This document shows positions 36,182-56,892 of a DNA stretch of 64,000 bases, one piece after another. A model generated the notes under the pieces. It saw only the letters and a program-made list of their open reading frames with translations, did no database searches and was not told the origin of the DNA. The stretch covers positions 1,278,501-1,342,500 of the forward strand of contig NZ_CP121694.1 of NCBI RefSeq assembly GCF_035573695.1, given 5' to 3'. The DNA is from Metallumcola ferriviriculae. GTDB lineage: Bacteria > Bacillota > JADQBR01. Position numbers and translations under genes: made by a program. Numbering within the stretch: position 1 is the stretch's first letter; each line of letters begins with the position of its first letter.

Positions 36182-36718
36182 GTGGATATCCGGCAAAAAG
36201 CCCGTCAACTAGGGGCGTCTAAAGCTCTAATTATTACCAAAGAGCAGTTAGTGATAGAAGAGGCGGTAAGAAATGCTTGTGTTGAAAACCAATGCGGTCA
36301 TTACGACAGTAACTTTATGTGCCCTCCCCATGTGGGAGAAATATCGCACTTTGAAGAAGTTCTTGATGAATACAGCCAAGGTCTATTAGTGCAGGTAAAA
36401 CGTGATATTAAATCTCTCGAGGACAAAGAGGCAATTTTATCATTGGCTGGACAATTACATCAGTTGGTGCTAGCTATAGAAAAAGAAGCAAAGCAGCAGG
36501 ACTATTCCCGCGCAAAGGCCTTAAGCGCAGGTCATTGTAAACTTTGCGAACCATGTCCGATTAATACGGGCGCCGACACGTGCATTAAACCCGACCTGGC
36601 TCGCCCTGCCATGGAAGCAGTGGGAATCAATGTAGTGGAAAGCTGCCGTCGCGCCGGGGCACCGCTTGAATTTTTGCAACATGAGGTTACCTGGGTTGGG
36701 CTGATCTTACTAAAATAA
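36182..36718 (+). CDS. DUF2284 Cys-rich metal-binding protein, copy 1
   Basis: The 178-residue protein starts at GTG 36182, with AAGGGGGAA upstream. Conserved cysteines occur in 'CVENQCGHYDSNFMCPP' (~32-48), 'GHCKLCEPCPI' (~117-127) and 'ADTCIKPDLARPAMEAVGI', the DUF2284 pattern that suggests an Fe-S cluster. Function is unknown. It differs from copy 2 (43682-44218) at only three residues. It is followed by a truncated SGNH hydrolase gene. Confidence 0.85.
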   Translation: MDIRQKARQLGASKALIITKEQLVIEEAVRNACVENQCGHYDSNFMCPPHVGEISHFEEVLDEYSQGLLVQVKRDIKSLEDKEAILSLAGQLHQLVLAIEKEAKQQDYSRAKALSAGHCKLCEPCPINTGADTCIKPDLARPAMEAVGINVVESCRRAGAPLEFLQHEVTWVGLILLK

Positions 36719-42314: not shown

Positions 42315-42333
42315 ATTGATGAGGTGGTTTTTC

Positions 42334-43254
42334 ATGAAATATATGAGTTCTAAAGAAGCAAGTGAAAAATGGAGAATAAGTGATCGTCGAATTCGGGTGC
42401 TTTGTAATGAGGGGCGTATCGAAGGTGCTATAAAAATTGGGCGAAATTGGTCTATACCTACCGATGCTGCTAAACCTGCAGATGCAAGGGAAACGAGTAA
42501 GAAGAAATACATTGGAATGGAATTTAACTTCAGTTATTTAGATTCACTGAAGGAATCTATCGACGAGCACAGACCTTTTTCCAAAGGACTTGCCAATTCG
42601 CTGCAGGAGAAACTCATTGTTGAATGGACATATAATAGCAATGCCATAGAGGGGAATACTCTGACATTGTCAGAGACTAAAGTTGTTCTTGAAGGGATTA
42701 CTATTGGTGGGAAAAGTATGATTGAACATTTAGAAACAATCAACCATCGTGAGGCAATACTCTTTATAGAGAAACTTATTTCTAATAAAGAACCCCTATC
42801 TGAATGGAATATCAAAAATATCCATGCCTTGATACTTAAAGAAATAGATAATACTAACGCCGGTAAATATCGGAGCGAAAATGTTGTAATAAGCGGTGCT
42901 AAGCATATTCCACCGAAGCACTATGAAATTGGAGATTTGATGCAAAAACTTATAGCAGAGTATCAGAGTGAATGGGAAGGGTTTCATCCAGTCGTGAGAG
43001 CAACATTGCTACATGGAGAATTTGTGAAAATTCATCCTTTCATTGATGGAAATGGAAGGACTTCTAGACTGCTTCTCAATTTTGAGTTAATGAAATATGG
43101 ATATCCTCCAATCATTATCAAGAATACGCAGCGGGCAAGATACTATGATGTTCTTGATCTGGCACATACAACTATGAATTACGAGCCATTTGTAAAATTA
43201 GTGTCAGAACTGTTGATAGAGTCAGAAAAACTATGGTTATCCGTATTAGATTAA
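42334..43254 (+). CDS. Fic-domain AMP-transferase with N-terminal helix-turn-helix
   Basis: The 306-residue protein starts at 42334 behind GAGGTGG. Residues 1-50 form an excisionase/MerR-like helix-turn-helix ('SSKEASEKWRISDRRIRVLC'). The inhibitory helix motif 'SNAIEGN' is near residue 105, and the Fic motif 'HPFIDGNGRTSR' near 229-240 is complete. The self-inhibiting motif in the same chain makes this a class II Fic protein, adding AMP to target hydroxyls when relieved. The operator overlapping its promoter suggests it represses itself. Confidence 0.93.
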   Translation: MKYMSSKEASEKWRISDRRIRVLCNEGRIEGAIKIGRNWSIPTDAAKPADARETSKKKYIGMEFNFSYLDSLKESIDEHRPFSKGLANSLQEKLIVEWTYNSNAIEGNTLTLSETKVVLEGITIGGKSMIEHLETINHREAILFIEKLISNKEPLSEWNIKNIHALILKEIDNTNAGKYRSENVVISGAKHIPPKHYEIGDLMQKLIAEYQSEWEGFHPVVRATLLHGEFVKIHPFIDGNGRTSRLLLNFELMKYGYPPIIIKNTQRARYYDVLDLAHTTMNYEPFVKLVSELLIESEKLWLSVLD

Positions 43255-43681: not shown

Positions 43682-44218
43682 GTGGATATCCGGCAAAGAG
43701 CCCGTCAACTAGGGGCGTCTAAAGCTCTAATTATTACCAAAGAGCAGTTAGTTATAGAACAGGCGGTAAGAAATGCTTGTGTTGAAAACCAATGCGGTCA
43801 TTACGACAGTAACTTTATGTGCCCTCCCCATGTGGGAGAAATATCGGACTTTGAAGAAGTTCTTGATGAATACAGCCAAGGTCTATTAGTGCAGGTAAAA
43901 CGTGATATTAAATCTCTCGAGGACAAAGAGGCAATTTTATCATTGGCTGGACAATTACATCAGTTGGTGCTAGCTATAGAAAAAGAAGCAAAGCAGCAGG
44001 ACTATTCCCGCGCAAAGGCCTTAAGCGCAGGTCATTGTAAACTTTGCGAACCATGTCCGATTAATACGGGCGCCGACACGTGCATTAAACCCGACCTGGC
44101 TCGCCCTGCCATGGAAGCAGTGGGAATCAATGTAGTGGAAAGCTGCCGTCGCGCCGGGGCACCGCTTGAATTTTTGCAACATGAGGTTACCTGGGTTGGG
44201 CTGATCTTACTAAAATAA
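43682..44218 (+). CDS. DUF2284 Cys-rich metal-binding protein, copy 2
   Basis: The 178-residue protein is nearly identical to copy 1 at 36182 (differences at residues ~6, 27 and 56), with the same cysteine motifs and GTG start. Here it is followed by an intact SGNH hydrolase gene 102 bp downstream, which probably shows the ancestral order. Confidence 0.87.
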   Translation: MDIRQRARQLGASKALIITKEQLVIEQAVRNACVENQCGHYDSNFMCPPHVGEISDFEEVLDEYSQGLLVQVKRDIKSLEDKEAILSLAGQLHQLVLAIEKEAKQQDYSRAKALSAGHCKLCEPCPINTGADTCIKPDLARPAMEAVGINVVESCRRAGAPLEFLQHEVTWVGLILLK

Positions 44219-46689: not shown

Positions 46690-46866
46690 TTGTTATTTTT
46701 GTTCCCAAAAAACTTTTTATGTGAGAAATATCCAAAATATTTCACAACAAGCTGATTGTGGATTATAAGACGGATGAGGTGAACTTCAGTCATATTCTGC
46801 TCCTCCGAAACAACATATTTAAGCGCTGATGCTGGAGAGTGTATAATTCAATGAGGGTGAACTAAA

Positions 46867-47172
46867 ATGCTAGATGAACAGAGCGCCAAACAGAGAAAAT
46901 TTATTAAAGAAAGCATCGAAGCATTACAAGAAATTAAACGATATTACAGAGGCGTCCGGCAGCAAAAAGCAGCATTTGATGCCTTAGTAACCGATTTAAG
47001 AAAGGCCTATAGGACTTTTCCGGAATTATTTACTAAGATGGACATTATGGTACTGAAGCACGTGATCCAGCAAGTCGGGAGTTATACCGGCAAACTGGAA
47101 TATAGTGATGACAATTTAAATGAGTTAGATATTTTGCATTTACCTTTAGGAGCAATAGTATTTCATAGGTAA
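46867..47172 (+). CDS. Hypothetical small helical protein
   Basis: The 101-residue protein starts at 46867 behind GAGGGTGAAC. It is predicted helical and charged ('QRKFIKESIEALQEIKRYYR'), without Cys, membrane segment or known motif. A good terminator follows at 47244-47271, so it is probably a real monocistronic gene. Function is unknown. Confidence 0.55.
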   Translation: MLDEQSAKQRKFIKESIEALQEIKRYYRGVRQQKAAFDALVTDLRKAYRTFPELFTKMDIMVLKHVIQQVGSYTGKLEYSDDNLNELDILHLPLGAIVFHR

Positions 47173-47243
47173 ATAGCATGCCGTTGAAATCGAATTGGTC
47201 AAAAAAGTGAAAAATGGGGATTCCGATCAAATTAGCCACCAAA

Positions 47244-47280
47244 CACCACTCATTACCTAAATAGAGTGGTGCTTTCTTTT
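47244..47280 (+). terminator. Rho-independent terminator
   Basis: CACCACTC (47244-47251) pairs with GAGTGGTG (47264-47271) over 12 bases, followed by CTTTCTTTT. Confidence 0.75.
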
Positions 47281-47390
47281 GGCCGAAAAAGTAATAAATG
47301 TCTAAACTAGAAAGAGGGCAAAATCAATCTGCGTATATGTAAAATTATGAGTATGTTGCAGACTATTGAATTATTGAGAATTCGCATTGG

Positions 47391-48245
47391 CTATTGTTTA
47401 CACCCTAAAGCACAACAAATCTGCCAATACGTATCAAAATGTTTTCCCCTTATGCTACTACAAATTTTGGGAGAATGTTCATCAGGATGAATTGTTTTCC
47501 TTTTGGTCACACTTTTATTTACGGGGTCGCATGGTTTGGGTACTTTGTTTCCGCGGGCTGTATTTATTGCCGCTAGTTCTTCAAGGATTTCTTGCTTATA
47601 TAAAATATTAAATCCTACAGGCTCAAAGTATTCTGCGTATATTCTTACCTGGTGTTCTTTTGCCCAGTTTCCTTTACCTCTCGTATTGGGGTGCCCCCAT
47701 AGAATATTTTGTACAGGTATGTTTAAGGTGGGATCCTGCAACAATGAGCATATTTGGATGGGTAATACCCAGTTACTATTCATTATTTCTAGGTAGACTC
47801 TGTGTCGGCCTGATTGATCATAATTGCTCTTTCTTATAAAACCCGCCACGTCAGCAAAACCTTTCAAAAAATTTAGCTTTGCACTACCTGGAGCTTGAAA
47901 AAAGAGGCTTGGAATTCTAAATTTGGTGTAATCACTTGCATAGTTGAAGAAATGTGTTATATTTTGCCATGTATGGGTGTTCCCGCCAAAAGGAACTAAA
48001 ATATCAATTTGATTTTTAAATGCTAGTTTTTTTACGGGAATGCCTGTAAATTCAATTAGTTTGTTAACTATGGGGTCAAGCCCGATGATTAATTTATCTT
48101 CTTGGTCAAAAGTTTTTGTTACTCCCGTGGCCTTGATAGACTTATAAAGAAAATGGATTGTTAAATGTTTCTTAGAATAATCTAGTTTTCCCCGGCCGCA
48201 AGTTAAGCCTAGCAAATAGGCCAAGTCATCTAAAATGCATTGCAT
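47391..48245 (-). CDS. Putative restriction-associated protein with two LAGLIDADG-like motifs
   Basis: The 284-residue protein begins directly after the stop of a DNA methyltransferase gene (zero spacing), which suggests a restriction-modification partner. Two segments resemble LAGLIDADG helices: 'LAYLLGLTCGRGKL' at residues 8-21 and 'FLKGFADVAGFIR' near 128-140, but the usual catalytic acids before the final G are Arg and Ala. The C-terminus has Cys residues ('QICCALGCK'). It may be a restriction endonuclease on a homing-endonuclease scaffold or an inactive DNA-binding subunit. Function is inferred from context. Confidence 0.6.
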   Translation of the reverse strand: MQCILDDLAYLLGLTCGRGKLDYSKKHLTIHFLYKSIKATGVTKTFDQEDKLIIGLDPIVNKLIEFTGIPVKKLAFKNQIDILVPFGGNTHTWQNITHFFNYASDYTKFRIPSLFFQAPGSAKLNFLKGFADVAGFIRKSNYDQSGRHRVYLEIMNSNWVLPIQICSLLQDPTLNIPVQNILWGHPNTRGKGNWAKEHQVRIYAEYFEPVGFNILYKQEILEELAAINTARGNKVPKPCDPVNKSVTKRKTIHPDEHSPKICSSIRGKHFDTYWQICCALGCKQ

Positions 48246-49067
48246 TTATATTGCCACCCCAGGTTTTTTAAAAATGCAAATATACTCATGTACCTTATTA
48301 ACCCTAAAGACATAGGGGTATCCCAAGGGGCGTAAATTGTTATAATCTTTTCGTCTGTCCCAAATAATATAATCCTCTAAATGGAAGCCTTGTTTTTGCA
48401 TCAAGTTTGTAACGTCGATATGTAGCGGGTAGAATTCCTTCTTTTTTCTTATATCCATTACAATTATAATACAGTGTCTTCCGGCCTTAAGTACCATATA
48501 AAGGCCTTTAATAACCTCACCTATTTCACAAAGAAACTTTTGATAGTCTTTTATGTTGCCGAGATCGTTCTTATCATCTCCGTAATTTCTAATTTGTTTG
48601 TAGTCAGCGGACCTCTTTCTATTCAAAATGTCCCAATACGGAGGAGAAGTAAGGCAAAAATCTACAGAGTTAGCATGTAAGTAAGTGTTCATGTTTAAGC
48701 AGGACTCATTTATGACATAGTTTGTAAGATTATAATTCTTAAGTAGGTGGTTAGCTACTTTAAAATAATCATTATTTATCTCAAATCCAGCACCCAGCCT
48801 TTTAAGGCGGTTTGCAGCGATTAACGTGCTGCCAACCCCCATAAAAGGATCGAGAACTATTTCACCGGGTTTACTATAAATTCTAATTAACTTTTGTACC
48901 ATGCTAACTGGAAAAGAAGCAGGATGATTTAAAGATTTCTCTTCTTTTGACTTACAGTCATCCCATACACTAATTGAGTACTTTATCCAATCTTTACCGG
49001 ATATTTTTTCTTCGTCGCTGCTCATCCCATTCTCTTCAACATGCAAGTTGACCGCTTTAGTATCCAA
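48246..49067 (-). CDS. DNA methyltransferase (N4-cytosine/N6-adenine type), motif order I then IV
   Basis: The 273-residue protein has motif I 'VLDPFMGVGSTLIAANRL' at ~72-89 and catalytic motif IV 'TSPPYWD' near 139. SPPY is typical of N4-cytosine methyltransferases, and I before IV is the alpha/permuted order. The start is TTG 49067 behind AAGGGGGG. A LAGLIDADG-like protein gene follows immediately, forming a likely restriction-modification operon. Target sequence unknown. Confidence 0.88.
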   Translation of the reverse strand: MDTKAVNLHVEENGMSSDEEKISGKDWIKYSISVWDDCKSKEEKSLNHPASFPVSMVQKLIRIYSKPGEIVLDPFMGVGSTLIAANRLKRLGAGFEINNDYFKVANHLLKNYNLTNYVINESCLNMNTYLHANSVDFCLTSPPYWDILNRKRSADYKQIRNYGDDKNDLGNIKDYQKFLCEIGEVIKGLYMVLKAGRHCIIIVMDIRKKKEFYPLHIDVTNLMQKQGFHLEDYIIWDRRKDYNNLRPLGYPYVFRVNKVHEYICIFKKPGVAI

Positions 49068-49371: not shown

Positions 49372-49707
49372 ATGGGAAGACGAAAATTTACAGCCGAATT
49401 CAAAACTAAAATCGTACTGGAGCTACTCAAAGAAGAAAAACAGATCGGCGAACTAGCAGCCGAACATGAGTTAAGCCCCAATCAACTGCGCAACTGGAAA
49501 AAAGATTTTTTAGAGAATGCACCACAGGTGTTCTCACAAAGCAAGCAAGAAAAAGAGCTTCGTGCCCAAGAAAAAGCTTTGGACGAAGAAAGAACCGAAT
49601 TAATGGCAAAAGTCGGTCAACTCACTATTGAGAATGACTGGCTCAAAAAAAAATCTAAAGAAGTTCTTGGGGTCGACTGGGAGAATAAGTCTGGTTTCAA
49701 AAAATAA
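49372..49707 (+). CDS. IS3-family transposase OrfA
   Basis: The 111-residue helix-turn-helix/leucine-zipper protein has 'MGRRKFTAEFKTKIVLELL' at the N-terminus, 'LSPNQLRNWKKDFL', then a coiled coil. It is the DNA-binding part of an IS3-type transposase. It overlaps orfB by 80 bp. Frame offset to orfB is +1 (equivalently -2), whereas IS3 elements usually use -1, so either an indel is present or orfB is initiated separately. Confidence 0.92.
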   Translation: MGRRKFTAEFKTKIVLELLKEEKQIGELAAEHELSPNQLRNWKKDFLENAPQVFSQSKQEKELRAQEKALDEERTELMAKVGQLTIENDWLKKKSKEVLGVDWENKSGFKK

Positions 49708-50515
49708 CAAACTGCCGGTTAATCGGCAATGCCAGTTACTTGAGATCAATAGAACCAGTTTTTATTACACACCTAAAGAACCTGACAGAGAGCGCGAAAA
49801 TATGATTAAAAACAGGCTTGATTACTGGCATACCAAGATGCCATATCTAGGGGTTAGGAAGCTTCGCAAAAAGCTACAGAATGAAGACCACATTAAGGTT
49901 GGCCGTAAGTTAATTAAACGCTATATGGACGAAATGGGAATATATGCGGTCTATCCTAAACCCAACCTGTCAAAGCGTAATAAGCAGCACAAAATCTATC
50001 CTTACCTGTTAAGAAACCTAGATATTAATCGGGCAAACCAGGTTTGGGCCATTGACATTACCTACATTAAGATGGGCAGAAGTCATATGTATCTAACAGC
50101 CGTCATCGACTGGTATAGTCGTTACATAGTAGGCTGGGAACTATCAGATACTTTGGACACCGCACCGGTGTTAGCAGCAGTTAAAGAAGCTATCAACAGA
50201 TACGGCACGCCGGAAATTATCAACAGCGATCAGGGGTCTCAGTTCACAAGCGCTGATTACACAGAATATTTAAAGAGCGTGAACATCAGACAAAGCATGG
50301 ACGGCAAGGCCCGTTGGATTGATAATGTTATCATAGAGCGATGGTTTAGAAGTCTAAAAACCGAACAAATCTACACACATGAATATCTAACACCTAGAGA
50401 CCTAAGGATCGGTATTAGAGAATATATCCAAGAATATAATATAGAACGGCCACATCAAACCCATGACTACCTAACTCCTCAAGAAGTCTATCTGGGGATA
50501 AGCAAGGCAGCTTAA
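49628..50515 (+). CDS. IS3-family transposase OrfB (DDE integrase)
   Basis: The rve integrase domain carries 'WAIDITYIKMGRSHMYLTAV' (first D), 'NSDQGSQFTSADY' (second D) and 'DNVIIERWFRSLKTEQIY' (E). The family N-terminus 'LPVNRQCQLLEINRTSFYY' begins near residue 29, so residues 1-28 are readthrough of the overlap. An A9 run at 49645-49653 and 'TTCAAAAAATAA' at the orfA end are possible slippage sites. Confidence 0.92.
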   Translation: MRMTGSKKNLKKFLGSTGRISLVSKNNKLPVNRQCQLLEINRTSFYYTPKEPDRERENMIKNRLDYWHTKMPYLGVRKLRKKLQNEDHIKVGRKLIKRYMDEMGIYAVYPKPNLSKRNKQHKIYPYLLRNLDINRANQVWAIDITYIKMGRSHMYLTAVIDWYSRYIVGWELSDTLDTAPVLAAVKEAINRYGTPEIINSDQGSQFTSADYTEYLKSVNIRQSMDGKARWIDNVIIERWFRSLKTEQIYTHEYLTPRDLRIGIREYIQEYNIERPHQTHDYLTPQEVYLGISKAA

Positions 50516-51217: not shown

Positions 51218-51393
51218 CCTGTTAAGGTAAACCAAATGTTATTAGTAGGTAGTCAACAGCCTGCTGATTAACGAGATATTTTGGTATTCCTATTTAAATG
51301 GGGAAATTTGTAAAAAAACAGAAATTATAAAGGGGATTTATTAAGGATAAAGAAGTTTACAATAAATCATCTCTAGAGACGAGGAGGGTGGAT

Positions 51394-51846
51394 ATGAAGA
51401 TATTTATTTCACACAAAGATGTAGATTCTGATGTTGCTACCCAAATAAATAAGTATCTATCCAGTAGAGGTATTCAAACTTACTTAGATGTACTTGACAA
51501 TAGTGTAAGCGGAAGTGGGAAAAAGTTAACGCAACACTTAATGCGTCAACTAAATCAATGTACGCACTTGATGACGATTTTATCTAAGGATACTCGATAT
51601 TCATGGTGGGTTCCTTTCGAGATTGGAATGGCGTCGCAAAGACGATTTCCTATAGCTAATTACCTTGTTGAGGGGGTATCTCTTCCTAGCTTTTTAGAAT
51701 ATTGGCCACGATTGAAAAGATTGAGTGATTTAGATAAATATATTATTGCAATACATAAACCGGAAGTCGAACTTAATAAGTCTTTTGAGTATAAGGGACT
51801 AGAATATTCAGACCAATTCCACAAATATTTGAAGTCAATTTTATGA
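51394..51846 (+). CDS. TIR-domain protein (ThsB-like), first
   Basis: The 150-residue single TIR domain starts at 51394 behind GAGGAGGG. It opens 'KIFISHKDVDSDVATQINKY' and contains 'YSWWVPFEIGMASQRRFPIA', where the Glu of FEIG matches the catalytic Glu of NAD-consuming bacterial TIRs. In Thoeris-type defence, such proteins sense infection and make a cyclic ADP-ribose-type signal. It is the first gene of a TIR-TIR-caspase operon. Confidence 0.88.
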   Translation: MKIFISHKDVDSDVATQINKYLSSRGIQTYLDVLDNSVSGSGKKLTQHLMRQLNQCTHLMTILSKDTRYSWWVPFEIGMASQRRFPIANYLVEGVSLPSFLEYWPRLKRLSDLDKYIIAIHKPEVELNKSFEYKGLEYSDQFHKYLKSIL

Positions 51847-51907
51847 AAGATTTAGGGTGGATACTTGTAAGCAAGTAACGAATTTCGGGAAGAGAGGGGT
51901 CTTAATC

Positions 51908-52288
51908 TTGGCGAAAAAGAGAGTGTTCATTAGTTTTGCAATTCAGGATGTACGTTATAGGGATCTCCTTAAAGGACAAGCATTAAATACTAATTCACCA
52001 TTTGAATACGTTGATATGTCGGCAAAAAAAGCATGGGATAGCAAGTGGAAAACGAATTGCCGTACTCGTATAAAGGGTTGTGGTGGAGTCATTGCACTGA
52101 TTAGTAAGCATACTCGTCTGGCAGATGGTGCTAAATGGGAAATGCAATGTGCTAACTATGAAGGAATACCAATGATTGGCGTTCATATCCATAAAGACGA
52201 TAAGGGGCAGATTTCTCCACAGTTAGCAGGGAGAAAAGTTATTGAGTGGAAATGGGAGGGAATTAAAAAATTTATCAATAGTATATGA
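51908..52288 (+). CDS. TIR-like protein (MTH538/DUF1863 type, ThsB-like), second
   Basis: The ~126-residue protein starts at TTG 51908 behind GAGAGGGG. The sequence 'KRVFISFAIQDVRYRDLLKG' and 'SKHTRLADGAKWEMQCA' (candidate catalytic Glu in KWEMQ), with 'IPMIGVHI', matches the compact TIR-like family that includes Thoeris ThsB. It differs strongly from the first TIR, so the operon may respond to two kinds of trigger. The caspase gene begins 12 bp downstream. Confidence 0.85.
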   Translation: MAKKRVFISFAIQDVRYRDLLKGQALNTNSPFEYVDMSAKKAWDSKWKTNCRTRIKGCGGVIALISKHTRLADGAKWEMQCANYEGIPMIGVHIHKDDKGQISPQLAGRKVIEWKWEGIKKFINSI

Positions 52289-52300
52289 GGTGGTCATGAT

Positions 52301-53254
52301 ATGAGAAAAGCATTAGTTGTTGGTATTGATTATTATAAGAATGTTTCCCGACTTTATGGGTGCGTTAATGATGCTTATTCTGTTAAAAGTGTTCTAGACA
52401 GAAACAGTGATGGAAGTATTAATTTCGGTGTAAGGTTGGAGGTCGCAACTGGGCCAGATGAAATGATAACTAGAAAACAATTAAAGGAACAGATAGTAGA
52501 GTTGTTTAGAGACAATAGTGATATTGCGTTATTATACTTTTCGGGACATGGATATGTTGAGAGTACTGGCGGGTTTTTAATTACTTCTGACTGTAATGAT
52601 GGGGACGATGGTTTTTCCATGAATGAATTGCTTAAGCTCGTTAATGATTCTCCCGCCAAAAATAAAATAATTATTTTGGATACGTGCCATTCGGGAGTTG
52701 CTGGCACACCTGATTTGGATGAAAACAAGGCCGTTTTGAAGGAAGGCACTACTATTCTCACAGCATCAAGTGCTGACCAGTATGCTGTCGAGGAGAATGG
52801 GGCGGGAGTATTCACAACATTATTAGTTGATGCACTTAATGGCAGTGCCGCAAACCTAGTTGGTGATATAACGCCTGGAAGTATATACGCGCATATTGAT
52901 CAGTCTTTAGGACCATGGGAACAGCGTCCGGTCTTTAAGACTAATGTAAAAAGTTTTACTACTCTGAGAAAAGTCCACTCTTCAATTTCCCTAAACGACC
53001 TAAAACAAATAATTGAACTTTTTCCTGAGAAAGGTTATGAGTTCCAATTGGAACCGAGTTATGAACCAGAGAGTAAAAACCCAGTGCAAGAAAACACTGA
53101 GAAGCTTGCAGTACTACAAAAGTATAATCGAGTTAATTTAGTTGTACCAGTGAACGCGCCACATATGTACCATGCTGCTATGGGATCAAAATCATGCAAA
53201 CTCACCATTTTGGGCCAACATTATTGGAAACTTATTAAGAAGGAAAGGATATAA
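52301..53254 (+). CDS. Caspase-like (peptidase C14) protease, Thoeris-type effector
   Basis: The 317-residue protein has a caspase fold with the catalytic His in '[10 protein letters not shown]' (~residue 86) and catalytic Cys in '[11 protein letters not shown]' (~residue 130). A C-terminal region (~225-317) with '[19 protein letters not shown]' may sense the signal. The TIR-TIR-caspase order matches the caspase-effector form of Thoeris, in which a TIR-made nucleotide switches on a protease that kills the infected cell. The start has GAGGTGG. Confidence 0.9.
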
Positions 53255-53345
53255 CATTAAAGTTTATCTGGTGCAATATGAAATGACTTGGAGGAAATTA
53301 TTTCTATTAGTGCATCTTGCGGATGACAAATATGGAGTGAAAAAA

Positions 53346-54317
53346 ATGAATACTAGAATAAAATGCGCAGTATGTGACGAAGCCTTCTCAAATCAGAATG
53401 ACTACTTATCCCATTTACAAGCAGTTCATACTGATCAATTCAATAGTTTCATAGATAGCTTATTAAATTTAAATGATACCGGATATATACTTTCAGAACA
53501 CGACGAAGAAACTGACAATAATGGGCTTTCTACTATTAAAGAAGAAAGCGGTTCATACATACCAAAAAAGTCTCGAAGAATAACATCTTGGGAACCGGAC
53601 AACTTTAAAATGGAAGCAACGTCTATTTGGAGTTTTCCCAACAGAGGAGCTTGGGCAACCCATAATGCCAAGTACAGGGGAAATTGCTCCCCGTATATAC
53701 CACGAAATATTATTTTAAGATATTCTGAAGCAGGGGATTATGTCCTGGACCAATTTCTTGGTAGTGGCACTACCTTAGTAGAAGCTAAATTATTAAACAG
53801 GAGAGGGATAGGTGTTGATATCAATAACGGGGCATTAAAAATAGCCAGAAACAATCTTAGCTTTAAAAAGGTTAATTGTTTCGAGCCTAAAGTTGTCCAG
53901 GGAACCGCGAAAGAGCTGGGCTTCATTAAAGATAATAGTATTGATTTGATATGCACTCATCCTCCGTATGCTAATATTATTAAATACAGTAAAAACATCC
54001 CGGGGGATTTGTCTCTTTGCGATACGGATGACTTTTTGGAAGAGATGAAAATGGTTGCTGATGAAAGCTATAGGGTACTTAAGTCCAATAAATACTGTTC
54101 AATCCTAATGGGGGACACAAGAAGGAAAAAACATATTATTCCTTTAGGGTTTAAAGTGATGCAGGTATTTTTAGAGGCTGGTTTCGTTTTAAAAGAAATT
54201 GTTATTAAAGAACAGCATAATTGTAAAGCCACAGGATTTTGGCATCAAAAAAGCATTGACTATAATTTTCTATTGATTGCTCATGAGTACTTGTTTGTAT
54301 TTAGAAAGCCGGAATAA
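53346..54317 (+). CDS. DNA methyltransferase with N-terminal C2H2 zinc finger
   Basis: The 323-residue protein starts at 53346 behind GGAGTG. Residues ~6-30 form a canonical C2H2 finger, C-x2-C-x12-H-x4-H ('CAVC' ... 'HLQAVH'). The methyltransferase domain follows, with motif I 'YVLDQFLGSGTTLVEAKLLN' and catalytic motif IV 'CTHPPYANI'. The order (I then IV) is the same as in the methyltransferase at 48246. No endonuclease gene adjoins it, so it may be an orphan or belong with the TIR/caspase operon 91 bp upstream. Confidence 0.85.
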   Translation: MNTRIKCAVCDEAFSNQNDYLSHLQAVHTDQFNSFIDSLLNLNDTGYILSEHDEETDNNGLSTIKEESGSYIPKKSRRITSWEPDNFKMEATSIWSFPNRGAWATHNAKYRGNCSPYIPRNIILRYSEAGDYVLDQFLGSGTTLVEAKLLNRRGIGVDINNGALKIARNNLSFKKVNCFEPKVVQGTAKELGFIKDNSIDLICTHPPYANIIKYSKNIPGDLSLCDTDDFLEEMKMVADESYRVLKSNKYCSILMGDTRRKKHIIPLGFKVMQVFLEAGFVLKEIVIKEQHNCKATGFWHQKSIDYNFLLIAHEYLFVFRKPE

Positions 54318-54623: not shown

Positions 54624-55907
54624 TCACAATGTCAATTCTATTATCCATTCTATCCATTTTTTCACCGTTGACGCTCTTCGATAAAATGTATCATTAGAGT
54701 TGATATTATAGAGATTAGATTGTTTCATTATCGTCACAACTTCATCGGCGGGAACAATCCCTGCACGCAGATAAAGTTTTAAAGTTTCGTTAAATACTCT
54801 ATAACTTAATATAATTCTCACGAACTCTAGTTGTCTTGCCCGCAGAGAAAGCTTGAATAAGTCTCTACCTTCATCTGTTAGAAAATAAATTATCTCTCCA
54901 TCGTTATTTTTTGCCTTATCTACAAGCCCCAGGTAACGGGCAGCATCTGTATAATAGTTTGTTTGTCGGTTGGCGAAATCATACATTGTTGTAATTTCAT
55001 CCCTTGTTAGTACTTCGCTCTCATGTAATAGTTCGCAAAGATTGATCAATCTTAGAAAGGAATTCGCCTGCGGGAATTGCAATCGTGGTTCTTCAACTAT
55101 TTGAACTGTACGTAATATTTCTTTAATATCTTCTAACTCTATATTCCCTTTGTCAATAGTATAGTTTTTTTGTCTTACTAAAAATAAAGAGTTGTAGTGA
55201 CTAGGTTCTCTAAATTGATATTCATAAAGGCTAAATATACCGTTACTATAAGTAAGATAAACATTTTTTATGTCTTTTCTGATTTTACTTTGCCAGCATC
55301 TGAATGGATAGTATATTTGTCTCACTAAAAAATCATCGGATAATGAGTTCTTCGCTTCAATTAAAGTAAAATATCGTAAGCTTTCATAACCAGCGTCAAT
55401 TTCAATTTGAGAATTTTGGACATTAACGGTAAAGTTAGTTCCTTGAGCTACATTTTGAATATTAAAATTAAACTGACCCGAACTCATTCTGCCGAACACG
55501 GTCGGTAAGATTTCTTCATCTTCAATAAAATTGCCAAGAATACCAGTGATATAAGCACAACTTATAGCTGCTGATTCACTTGTTATATTTTCATAATCAA
55601 TTGTTTCAATATAGTCTGGGAATATTATCGTTTTTACTTCTGGTTTTACATTTTCAAACTTGTGATATGCTTTCAGATTGGAAATTATATAGCTTCCCCG
55701 TGTCACAGGCAATATAGACAGACCGTTTTGTTCAAACATTTGAGGAAGGTTAGACTTATGATCAAACTTCGTCATAAGTCTTGCCTCACGGAATTCATTA
55801 ATTTGAGCAGCAGTAATTTCAAAATATTCGTGTTTTTTAACGTGGGGGAGAATATTGTACTTATCAAATAATTTCGCCCAAGCTATATCATTCTTTGTTT
55901 TAGTCAT
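54624..55907 (-). CDS. Type II restriction endonuclease partnered with a Dam-type methylase
   Basis: The 427-residue protein has a nuclease core with 'IEIDAGYES' and, 12 residues on, 'LIEAKNSLSDDF', a D...E-x-K arrangement of the PD-(D/E)xK superfamily (~residues 178-200). The C-terminal half has winged-helix-like segments. Its start overlaps the methylase gene by 8 bp, the usual organisation of a restriction-modification unit. The cleavage site is probably the methylase target. Confidence 0.85.
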   Translation of the reverse strand: MTKTKNDIAWAKLFDKYNILPHVKKHEYFEITAAQINEFREARLMTKFDHKSNLPQMFEQNGLSILPVTRGSYIISNLKAYHKFENVKPEVKTIIFPDYIETIDYENITSESAAISCAYITGILGNFIEDEEILPTVFGRMSSGQFNFNIQNVAQGTNFTVNVQNSQIEIDAGYESLRYFTLIEAKNSLSDDFLVRQIYYPFRCWQSKIRKDIKNVYLTYSNGIFSLYEYQFREPSHYNSLFLVRQKNYTIDKGNIELEDIKEILRTVQIVEEPRLQFPQANSFLRLINLCELLHESEVLTRDEITTMYDFANRQTNYYTDAARYLGLVDKAKNNDGEIIYFLTDEGRDLFKLSLRARQLEFVRIILSYRVFNETLKLYLRAGIVPADEVVTIMKQSNLYNINSNDTFYRRASTVKKWIEWIIELTL

Positions 55908-56736
55908 AATTTCTCACTAACACCTCGTCAATCTCGCCTCTCTTATCCCCCTTGGAGTTTAAGGCCCTTTTAGCCTGCACTATCTCTATTTTATAATCTC
56001 GATACAATTGCTTAATAAAATCTGTTGATGAGTTTGATAGTAAGAATTTTATACCTCGTTTATTGAGCTTGTCGCATAGCCTTTTTAGTCGTTCTTGCTC
56101 GTCTTTGTCGAAGCCGCCTTTATCATATCCCGTAAAGGACGCTGTATCACTAACGGGGTCATACGGTGGATCGAAATAGACAAATGCTCCCTTTCGTATC
56201 CTTTTGAGAGCATCTTCAAAGTCATAACATCTAAAGGTTATCTTAGACTGATTGAAATACTGGCCTACAGCACGCAAAGTACCTTCGTTTACAATGTTGG
56301 GGTTTTTATACTTGCCGAACGGGGCATTAAATTGTCCTGCACTATTAACTCTGAACAATCCATTGTAGCAAGTTTTATTGAGGAACACAATTCTTGACGC
56401 TCTTTCAATTGGGCTAAGTTTACTATATTGCTCTTTATCTCTATCCAGCTCTCGCAGTTTGTAAAAATAATCTACTTCGTTTTTATGTTTAGATAAATCT
56501 TCAATTAGCTCTTCGACATTATCACGAATAACACAATATACATTCATTAATTCTTCGTTTACATCATTCAAAATTGCTTTTTTAGGCTGTAGACGAAACA
56601 GTACCGCCCCGCCGCCCAGGAATGGCTCGTAGTAAGTAGAGAATTTTTGTGGTATGTATTTTTCAATTTCAGAAAGTAATTGTCTCTTACCGCCAGCCCA
56701 TTTAAGCACTGGTTGAGCAAGCTTATTCTTCCGCAT
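55900..56736 (-). CDS. DNA adenine methylase (Dam/MboIA, D12 class)
   Basis: The ~278-residue protein starts at 56736 behind GGGGAGGG. Motif X/I region 'PVLKWAGGKRQLL' and 'YEPFLGGGAVLF', and catalytic motif IV 'VYFDPPYDPVS', define an N6-adenine methyltransferase of the alpha class, often GATC-specific. It protects host DNA from the overlapping restriction enzyme. GATC specificity is inference. Confidence 0.93.
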   Translation of the reverse strand: MRKNKLAQPVLKWAGGKRQLLSEIEKYIPQKFSTYYEPFLGGGAVLFRLQPKKAILNDVNEELMNVYCVIRDNVEELIEDLSKHKNEVDYFYKLRELDRDKEQYSKLSPIERASRIVFLNKTCYNGLFRVNSAGQFNAPFGKYKNPNIVNEGTLRAVGQYFNQSKITFRCYDFEDALKRIRKGAFVYFDPPYDPVSDTASFTGYDKGGFDKDEQERLKRLCDKLNKRGIKFLLSNSSTDFIKQLYRDYKIEIVQAKRALNSKGDKRGEIDEVLVRNYD

Positions 56737-56892
56737 GATGTCCCTCCCCTGTGTTAGCAATTCAAAGGACTTCTTTCTATAATTTTTACAGAAAATCCTC
56801 CCAAGTAGCAGGAAAAGTTACATAACGCTAATTATGTTACTATAAAAGTAAAATCCCGCTATTTTTCCATCAAGTGCATAACTCTTTTAAGC

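Follow-up and report, generated by a model that had tools for sequence, protein, structure and literature searches.

We analyzed a 64,000-nucleotide stretch of the Metallumcola ferriviriculae genome (contig NZ_CP121694.1, positions 1,278,501 to 1,342,500; hereafter, the window), whose minus strand carries a DNA methyltransferase gene (48246 to 49067) and, next to it, a gene (47391 to 48245) for a 284-residue protein with a predicted LAGLIDADG fold. We consider it probable that this protein is a domesticated, non-cleaving member of the LAGLIDADG proteins, from a family whose members recognize the DNA for a split restriction enzyme, the cutting being left to a separate nuclease. A cutting protein of selfish elements seems to have become, after losing the ability to cut, the DNA-reading part of a widespread bacterial defense system, and the copy in the window is probably a reduced, non-restricting derivative of such a restriction-modification (R-M) system. 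The features that we observed are the gene order, the predicted folds, the lost LAGLIDADG acids, the kept PD-(D/E)xK residues of the nuclease, two methyltransferase classes per locus, and the co-clustering of these classes with the LAGLIDADG proteins.

A LAGLIDADG fold that lacks both catalytic acids

The 284-residue protein matched nothing above cut-off in Pfam, NCBIfam (best E value, 0.22), PADLOC, or PHROGs (best E value, 0.43), and phmmer and profile searches of the sequences of solved structures, made for the LAGLIDADG family and for the nuclease described below, gave best E values of 0.74 and 0.13 or nothing. A single relative hit PF05204 (Hom_end), below cut-off (E value, 0.0074). An AlphaFold2 model of the protein reached a mean predicted local distance difference test (pLDDT) score of 90.7 and a predicted template modeling (pTM) score of 0.91. 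When this predicted model was compared with solved structures by Foldseek and VIA-align 2, the top Foldseek matches were LAGLIDADG proteins, the first being 2dch (E value, 6.7e-6), and the best of the listed VIA-align 2 matches was I-Tsp061I (2dch; Z score 16.7, root-mean-square deviation [rmsd] 3.0, 186 aligned); PI-SceI (1vde; Z 16.1, rmsd 4.4, 195 aligned), I-DmoI (4unb; Z 15.4, rmsd 2.7, 166 aligned), and WhiA (8dy7; Z 14.6, rmsd 3.5, 185 aligned) also matched. A search of viral structures returned matches named terminases, polymerases, homing endonucleases, and the like, which we take for inteins. The two LAGLIDADG-like helices that the original prediction had read from the sequence are thus real, and structure prediction, which it had named as a test of the fold, gave LAGLIDADG and not another fold such as PD-(D/E)xK.

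Relatives were collected with a LAGLIDADG profile scan of 84,980 species, each represented by a single genome. This matched 147 genomic relatives, the best 80 of which, by short conserved patterns and similarity to the window, were kept, and the genome-locus counts below refer to these best 80 of 147. The collected set comprised 91 loci, the window included and near-copies retained, and the alignment comprised 67 rows, namely the window and the same 66 relatives that were fed to the AlphaFold2 model.

In the model, helices 2 to 18 and 120 to 134 end at R18 and A134, respectively, which we take to be the positions where homing endonucleases hold their catalytic acids. R18 lies in the first LAGLIDADG helix motif (residues 10 to 21, YLLGLTCGRGKL; 48183 to 48218, minus strand) and A134 in the second (residues 126 to 137, FLKGFADVAGFI; 47835 to 47870, minus strand), as placed by model and alignment. 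Among the 67 aligned rows, the first catalytic position holds Asn (53), Arg (8), His (3), or Lys (3), and the second holds Thr (65) or Ala (2); no acid was found at either position in any of the 91 collected sequences, one of which has a gap at the first. The replacement of the acids by Arg and Ala noted in the original prediction is therefore confirmed and, judged from these sequences, the loss of both acids is a trait of the family, as far as collected, and no accident of the window copy.

Past the LAGLIDADG core, the alignment shows a 44-residue C-terminal segment (residues 241 to 284; 47394 to 47525, minus strand), which lies outside the range of residues 1 to 240 spanned by most of the structural matches. 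It carries an HPxE...RGxH motif, whose residues are held in most of the 67 rows (H253 in 62, P254 in 65, E256 in 64, R266 in 58, G267 in 67, and H269 in 65). We considered the idea that this motif is lost where the nuclease is lost, and rejected it: the motif is altered in the closest intact relative of the window copy (L012) and in the G361 and G401 remnants, and also in nuclease-bearing members (Asn at H253 in L018 to L021; E256 and H269 altered in L039 and L048), and the window retains it without a nuclease.

By phylum as labeled, the 80 kept loci fall into Bacillota (44), Bacteroidota (16), and 12 further named phyla, with 3 unplaced; two are from Thermoplasmatota archaea, and many are metagenome bins, some possibly misbinned. 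Further loci are carried on phages and plasmids. A single-protein scan of viral contigs found no relatives. By tblastn, two plasmid records of Lactiplantibacillus plantarum and two gut phages proved to encode full-length relatives (∼30% identity), annotated as "hypothetical protein." The L. plantarum plasmid p9 is an example of a complete locus, with a fused methyltransferase, a LAGLIDADG gene, and a nuclease gene. Of 398 genomes drawn from the phylum of the window, three (the window, G209, and G361) matched the LAGLIDADG profile. One divergent member, L007 (1135 to 2529), has a C-terminal extension that brings it to 464 residues, and adjoins a C5 methyltransferase and a 225-residue nuclease-like protein. 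An accessory family of 124 to 149 residues occurs in 39 of the 91 loci (for example, L008, 6362 to 6811, and L013, 2512 to 2886); in L011 (2868 to 3944), it forms part of a 358-residue protein. This accessory family had no match in library scans.

A separate PD-(D/E)xK nuclease encoded directly downstream

In 79 of the 80 kept loci, the LAGLIDADG gene is followed directly by a match to the profile of a ∼165-residue nuclease (profile A4, which contained none of these 80 loci). Overall, 88 of the 91 loci have this gene, the exceptions being the window, L012, and the decayed G361 copy; nine of the 88 lie outside the 79 and match by construction, as rows of the profile or (L003) as a copy of one. 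The nuclease gene is on the same strand in 88 of 88 loci, and its start ranges from overlapping the LAGLIDADG gene to 11 nucleotides past its end, with overlap lengths being upper bounds, since gene starts were set at the first start codon. Two short frames (133 residues in L029 and 146 residues in L037) run into contig ends. In one otherwise complete metagenome-bin locus (L088, 6854 to 7135), the nuclease gene is broken, possibly through an assembly error or as a natural off state.

Three nuclease residues, D66, E83, and K85, are conserved in all 88 sequences, as is E8, and Q96 is present in 87 (one gap). An AlphaFold2 model of the L047 nuclease (pLDDT 94.9) best matched the endonuclease domain of PaqCI (8em1; Z 8.8, rmsd 3.5, 127 aligned) and also matched the small subunit of R.BspD6I (2p14; Z 7.0, rmsd 3.5, 115 aligned), a Z score of a size that is common; restriction enzymes were frequent among the 50 structural matches listed. 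Members of the nuclease family, scanned against the family libraries, gave nothing above a cut-off; two of them matched Pfam families below it (YhcG_C, E value 0.019, and PDDEXK_3, E value 0.032). The conserved residues fit a PD-(D/E)xK site, and the fold of the model is restriction-endonuclease-like.

The association also holds in the converse direction: when viral contigs were scanned for the nuclease, the four contigs returned were those that the LAGLIDADG scan had given, and the nuclease and LAGLIDADG queries of a plasmid collection gave the same two records. A second nuclease profile, A6, had no match in the 398 genomes of the window's phylum. In one of these, G209, the gene beside the LAGLIDADG gene shares 18% identity with the nuclease and keeps the D, E, and K residues, and we take it, on these residues, for a divergent nuclease; profile A6 therefore misses distant members of the family.

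The original prediction had favored a restriction enzyme that cleaves with a homing-endonuclease scaffold. Since the catalytic acids are absent from the collected family and a separate PD-(D/E)xK nuclease gene is present, cleavage by the LAGLIDADG scaffold is not expected, and that part of the prediction was not borne out. The protein might still cleave through an unconventional active site such as the HPxE...RGxH motif, which is nearly invariant in the family; we regard this as very improbable, with both standard acids missing, an intact PD-(D/E)xK site encoded next door, and the motif itself altered in the nuclease-bearing members named above.

Two methyltransferase classes that track the LAGLIDADG tree

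Homologs of the LAGLIDADG protein do have methyltransferase neighbors: all 80 kept loci have at least one same-strand methyltransferase gene no more than 6 kb upstream or 3.5 kb downstream, and the remaining collected loci have one as well, counting the decayed G361 copy. The complete relatives thus hold one or more methyltransferases beside the nuclease gene (79 of 80 kept loci), an arrangement from which restriction by the nuclease may be inferred. Classes were assigned with small profiles built in this analysis, and Pfam agreed on representatives for the EcoRI-type, C5, and D12 classes, for the permuted class (N6_N4_Mtase), and for the N6A class (Eco57I or N6_Mtase, 4 of 4). By these labels, 77 of the 80 loci encode two methyltransferase classes within that 6-kb and 3.5-kb range, fused or as separate genes, in four pairings: N6A with permuted (36), EcoRI-type with C5 (24), C5 with N6A (9), and D12 with permuted (8). 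Of the three exceptions, L012 has an upstream flank of 3,703 bases, and in L018 and L082 the contig stops after 447 and 1,065 upstream bases, respectively. Two classes per locus are expected if the recognition site is asymmetric; in MhoVII, a non-palindromic site is protected by two methyltransferases, one per strand (PMC12898733).

Moreover, the methyltransferase classes follow the LAGLIDADG proteins. On a LAGLIDADG tree of 70 rows (made by a quick method, with no root inferred and a program warning of long branches), the class changes 8 times, the least possible being 5; shuffled labels gave a mean of 34.0 changes, and none of 200 shuffles was as low. A LAGLIDADG protein that reads the site of the methyltransferases should give such clustering, though part of it would arise from shared inheritance and near-copies alone.

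These data bear on the alternative that the original prediction had itself offered, namely a non-cleaving specificity or controller subunit. Of these two roles, the specificity subunit is the one that we think most likely, and the controller stands only as a rival, in which the LAGLIDADG protein would be a C-protein-like controller or a WhiA-like regulator of the methyltransferase operon, and the PD-(D/E)xK protein would restrict alone. In favor of this, the structural matches include WhiA (Z 14.6), a LAGLIDADG-domain transcription factor, and both the window and L012 keep a LAGLIDADG gene that looks constrained in the absence of a nuclease. We nevertheless judge this role unlikely: the LAGLIDADG gene adjoins the nuclease gene in 88 of the 88 loci that have one, a nuclease of ∼165 residues has roughly the size of an endonuclease domain by itself, leaving little room for site recognition, and a regulator need not track methyltransferase class. 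The probabilities that we attach to this and the other alternatives are not exclusive of the recognition-subunit explanation.

A probably reduced gene pair in the window

The window copy begins with a circularly permuted N6/N4 DNA methyltransferase of 273 residues (permN; 48246 to 49067, minus strand), which starts at a TTG, with an ATG at codon 15. Its identity, as originally predicted, holds: it matches PF01555 with an E value of 1.1e-35 (124 bits against a cut-off of 26.7). The order is permuted, in that the C-terminal part of PF01555 is matched first, with residues 19 to 106 aligning to residues 189 to 274 of the solved relative 2zie, and that the catalytic motif TSPPYW (48633 to 48650, minus strand) lies downstream of the AdoMet (S-adenosylmethionine)-binding motif DPFMGVGSTL (48822 to 48851, minus strand); we take these to be motifs IV and I, respectively. 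In an alignment of four rows, TSPPYW is invariant, as are D73, P74, F75, G77, G79, S80, and T81 of motif I. The gapless coupling described earlier is also correct: both genes are on the minus strand, and the stop codon of the methyltransferase is followed, at 0 nucleotides, by the ATG of the LAGLIDADG gene.

Where relatives have the nuclease gene, the window (46690 to 47390) holds no such gene or recognizable remnant. A six-frame search of 44 to 56 kb with the nuclease profile gave no match (control L013 was found at 1.5e-50), and a search of the same region with four other methyltransferase families found no second methyltransferase; the sole weak cross-match (N6A, E value 0.013) is another methyltransferase at 53.2 to 54.3 kb. 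The positive controls of these remnant searches covered the nuclease and D12 profiles only, and weak matches appeared elsewhere, in the G361 region (nuclease, 0.035; N6A, 0.0012) and in L012 (N6A, 0.23 and 0.29). No nuclease match was found in the one-contig genome of the window or in the L012 genome by a search that found the control G411 (5.9e-49) and missed the divergent G209.

Two nearby nucleases were considered as replacements and rejected. An HNH gene convergent to the L012 pair resembles phosphorothioate-DNA restriction enzymes (E value 9.6e-19, below cut-off) and was set aside by judgment; a gene of this type was not sought in the window's genome. In the window itself, a type II nuclease (54624 to 55907) was judged unlikely to serve the pair, as it has its own adjacent D12 methyltransferase. 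The two form a conventional type II R-M pair (54624 to 56760), made up of a PADLOC REase_II (DUF6996/DUF6997/DUF7226) and a Dam/D12 methyltransferase.

L012, from a Thermoanaerobacterales bin, is the closest intact relative and has the same reduced pair, with identities to the window of 58.7% for the LAGLIDADG protein and 63.5% for the methyltransferase (measured on the identical L092). Among related genomes, G361 has a broken pair and G401 has a C-terminal remnant only. On the LAGLIDADG tree, the window and L012 stand beside the group with D12 and permuted methyltransferases (support 87, not starred), a join flagged for long branches, and they lie inside a starred set of 15 rows, the other 13 of which have nucleases. 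This nesting suggests that the nuclease was lost, on a tree whose root was not inferred.

The methyltransferases of the two reduced pairs group with 16 solitary permuted methyltransferases of the phylum (support 97, starred; quick method). Matches to the permuted methyltransferase were present in 46 genomes of the phylum, the window and G361 among them, and the regions around 16 were fetched (L129 to L144), with identities to the window enzyme of 46 to 54%. None of these 16 loci has a LAGLIDADG gene or remnant on either strand within the bases fetched, and none has a nuclease labeled nearby on the same strand. The window pair thus seems to stand partway between complete R-M systems and the solitary methyltransferases. 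Two solitary methyltransferases (L130, 1197 to 2033, and L137, 4134 to 5012) adjoin parA/parB-like genes, identified by Pfam in L130 (ParB and a ParA-type ATPase) and by likeness only in L137.

The solitary loci also led us to reject the idea that the permuted methyltransferase needs the LAGLIDADG protein, and they bear on a related alternative, in which the LAGLIDADG protein, as a shared specificity subunit, would guide the compact permuted methyltransferase as well, much as HsdS does in Type I systems. Consistent with such sharing, the methyltransferase and LAGLIDADG genes persist together without a nuclease in the window and L012, the permuted enzyme, by reading, has little sequence beyond its catalytic core, and both viral-contig relatives of this enzyme found by scan sit in LAGLIDADG loci. 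Set against this are the 16 of 16 solitary enzymes that occur without a LAGLIDADG gene at 46 to 54% identity, and the other loci, whose EcoRI-type and C5 methyltransferases match their Pfam families over nearly the full length; we therefore give this alternative slightly less credence than the controller.

The LAGLIDADG gene of the window shows signs of constraint. Synonymous sites are saturated between the window and L012, and codon-position identities were used in place of the ratio of nonsynonymous to synonymous substitution rates (dN/dS). These are 0.658, 0.722, and 0.394 for the first, second, and third positions of the LAGLIDADG gene and 0.678, 0.785, and 0.385 for those of the methyltransferase. 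A set of 49 positions is conserved in 60 or more of the 65 nuclease-bearing rows; 42 of them are kept in the window and 39 in L012, compared with 43 of 50, in a comparable set, for the nuclease-bearing rows that diverge most and 49 of 49 for the median row. The gene thus looks constrained, with some relaxation possible and with constraint before and after the loss of the nuclease inseparable in these figures. A decaying relic without function, an alternative that concerns the window copy alone and is compatible with the favored explanation for the complete relatives, would agree with the absence of the nuclease and the second methyltransferase and with the broken and remnant copies in G361 and G401. 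The intact 284-residue frame, third codon positions that have diverged while first and second positions are held, and the 42 and 39 family-conserved positions kept by the window and L012 argue the other way, and we hold a relic to be about as improbable as a shared specificity subunit. On the simplest reading of the sequence, the window pair most likely modifies a single strand of the former site and does not restrict.

Proposed mechanism and points against it

In the mechanism that we propose, the complete systems would guard an asymmetric site with two methyltransferases of different classes, one for each strand. The LAGLIDADG protein would bind this site as a pseudo-dimer and position the separate ∼165-residue PD-(D/E)xK nuclease on it, and the nuclease, probably dimeric in the manner of a Type IIS endonuclease domain, would cut unmethylated DNA. 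The net effect would be a Type IIS enzyme split into a reader and a cutter. In the window, the reader may have been retained for site binding, regulation, or help to the methyltransferase. DNA binding, subunit contact, asymmetry of the site, and restriction itself are what we infer here.

Several points weigh against this explanation. (i) It is built on sequences and models, and binding, cleavage, and subunit contact are predictions. (ii) The structural matches of the nuclease are modest, with a best Foldseek E value of 2.5e-3 (none below 0.001) and Z scores below 9. (iii) One of the 79 downstream nucleases, the 93-residue L088, has its frame broken after the D, E, and K residues. (iv) The methyltransferase labels cluster on the tree partly since near-copies cluster, and the tree carries warnings of long branches, including the join of the window and L012 with the L013 group. 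(v) The window keeps its LAGLIDADG gene without a nuclease, which a pure nuclease-targeting role does not predict. (vi) As profile A6 missed the G209 nuclease, a very divergent nuclease may lie elsewhere in the window's genome.

A broader view is possible, although we lean against it in its full form: the loci would represent a class of R-M systems, spread across bacteria, archaea, phages, and plasmids, with a dead homing endonuclease as a separable reader, and the window would hold a further stage, a nuclease-free module of two proteins (a methyltransferase acting on one strand and a site-binding protein under constraint) that serves its own purpose, for example in gene regulation.

Comparison with known systems

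The family shares two LAGLIDADG helices in a single chain with homing endonucleases such as I-Tsp061I, I-DmoI, and PI-SceI, but differs from them in lacking the catalytic acids (91 sequences) and the homing context: its genes are free-standing beside methyltransferases, with a nuclease downstream in 88 of 91 loci and with no intron or intein. WhiA has the same fold, by the comparison given above, and reportedly reuses it without cleavage. WhiA also carries a helix-turn-helix domain (PMC11701221).

Among restriction enzymes, the nuclease subunit resembles the Type IIS enzyme PaqCI, in its endonuclease domain, and the small subunit of R.BspD6I. PaqCI keeps its endonuclease and recognition domains separate (PMC10201449) within one chain, whereas reader and cutter are separate genes here; the main text of that source contains neither of the words LAGLIDADG and WhiA, and "homing" appears in its reference list only. 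MhoVII of Mycoplasma hominis is alike in using two methyltransferase classes (YhdJ-type and D12) on a non-palindromic site; it differs in having one restriction endonuclease gene, and the part of its description consulted mentions no LAGLIDADG subunit (PMC12898733).

Recognition also stands apart from cleavage in Type IIB enzymes that have a specificity subunit. One of these, BsaXI, is an (RM)2S assembly (PMC11997821), whereas here the methyltransferases are encoded by genes of their own, and the protein proposed to recognize the DNA has a LAGLIDADG fold. GmrSD was once said to have LAGLIDADG motifs and was shown to be without them (PMC4619093).

Other folds of homing endonucleases, namely PD-(D/E)xK, HNH, and GIY-YIG, serve restriction enzymes; we know of no LAGLIDADG example among them. 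Our search of the titles and opening abstract lines of open-access literature (PMC), with REBASE and most subscription journals outside its scope, found no LAGLIDADG subunit in an R-M system, and the scanned members of this putative defense family had no match above cut-off in Pfam, NCBIfam, or PADLOC. Judged on open-access papers and family libraries, the split reader/cutter enzyme is apparently undescribed. From their sequences, the complete systems may be filed as a Type II R-M variant that would work like a split Type IIS enzyme, any assignment to a Type II subclass being provisional. If confirmed, they would provide an evolutionary route from selfish element to immunity and a naturally occurring case of a LAGLIDADG reader uncoupled from its cutter, which is of interest to genome engineering, where such readers have already been redesigned.

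Other features of the window

Two transposase-type open reading frames (49372 to 50515; IS3-like by our reading), the second of which has an integrase core domain, lie immediately upstream of the methyltransferase gene and are encoded on the other strand. Farther along, the plus strand carries two TIR/ThsB-like genes (51388 to 51846 and 51857 to 52288) followed by a caspase-like Peptidase_C14 gene (52301 to 53254), and the stretch from 51388 to 53254 looks like a further defense locus. Another N6_N4 methyltransferase (53172 to 54317), preceded by a weak C2H2 zinc-finger-like stretch (residues 64 to 86, below cut-off), overlaps the caspase-like gene at the latter's end when its start is taken as the first start codon. 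Farther away, two genes of 178 residues (36182 to 36718 and 43682 to 44218), whose first 70 residues are nearly alike by eye and the second of which is a DUF2284 protein, form a local duplication that flanks a Fic-family gene (42316 to 43254).

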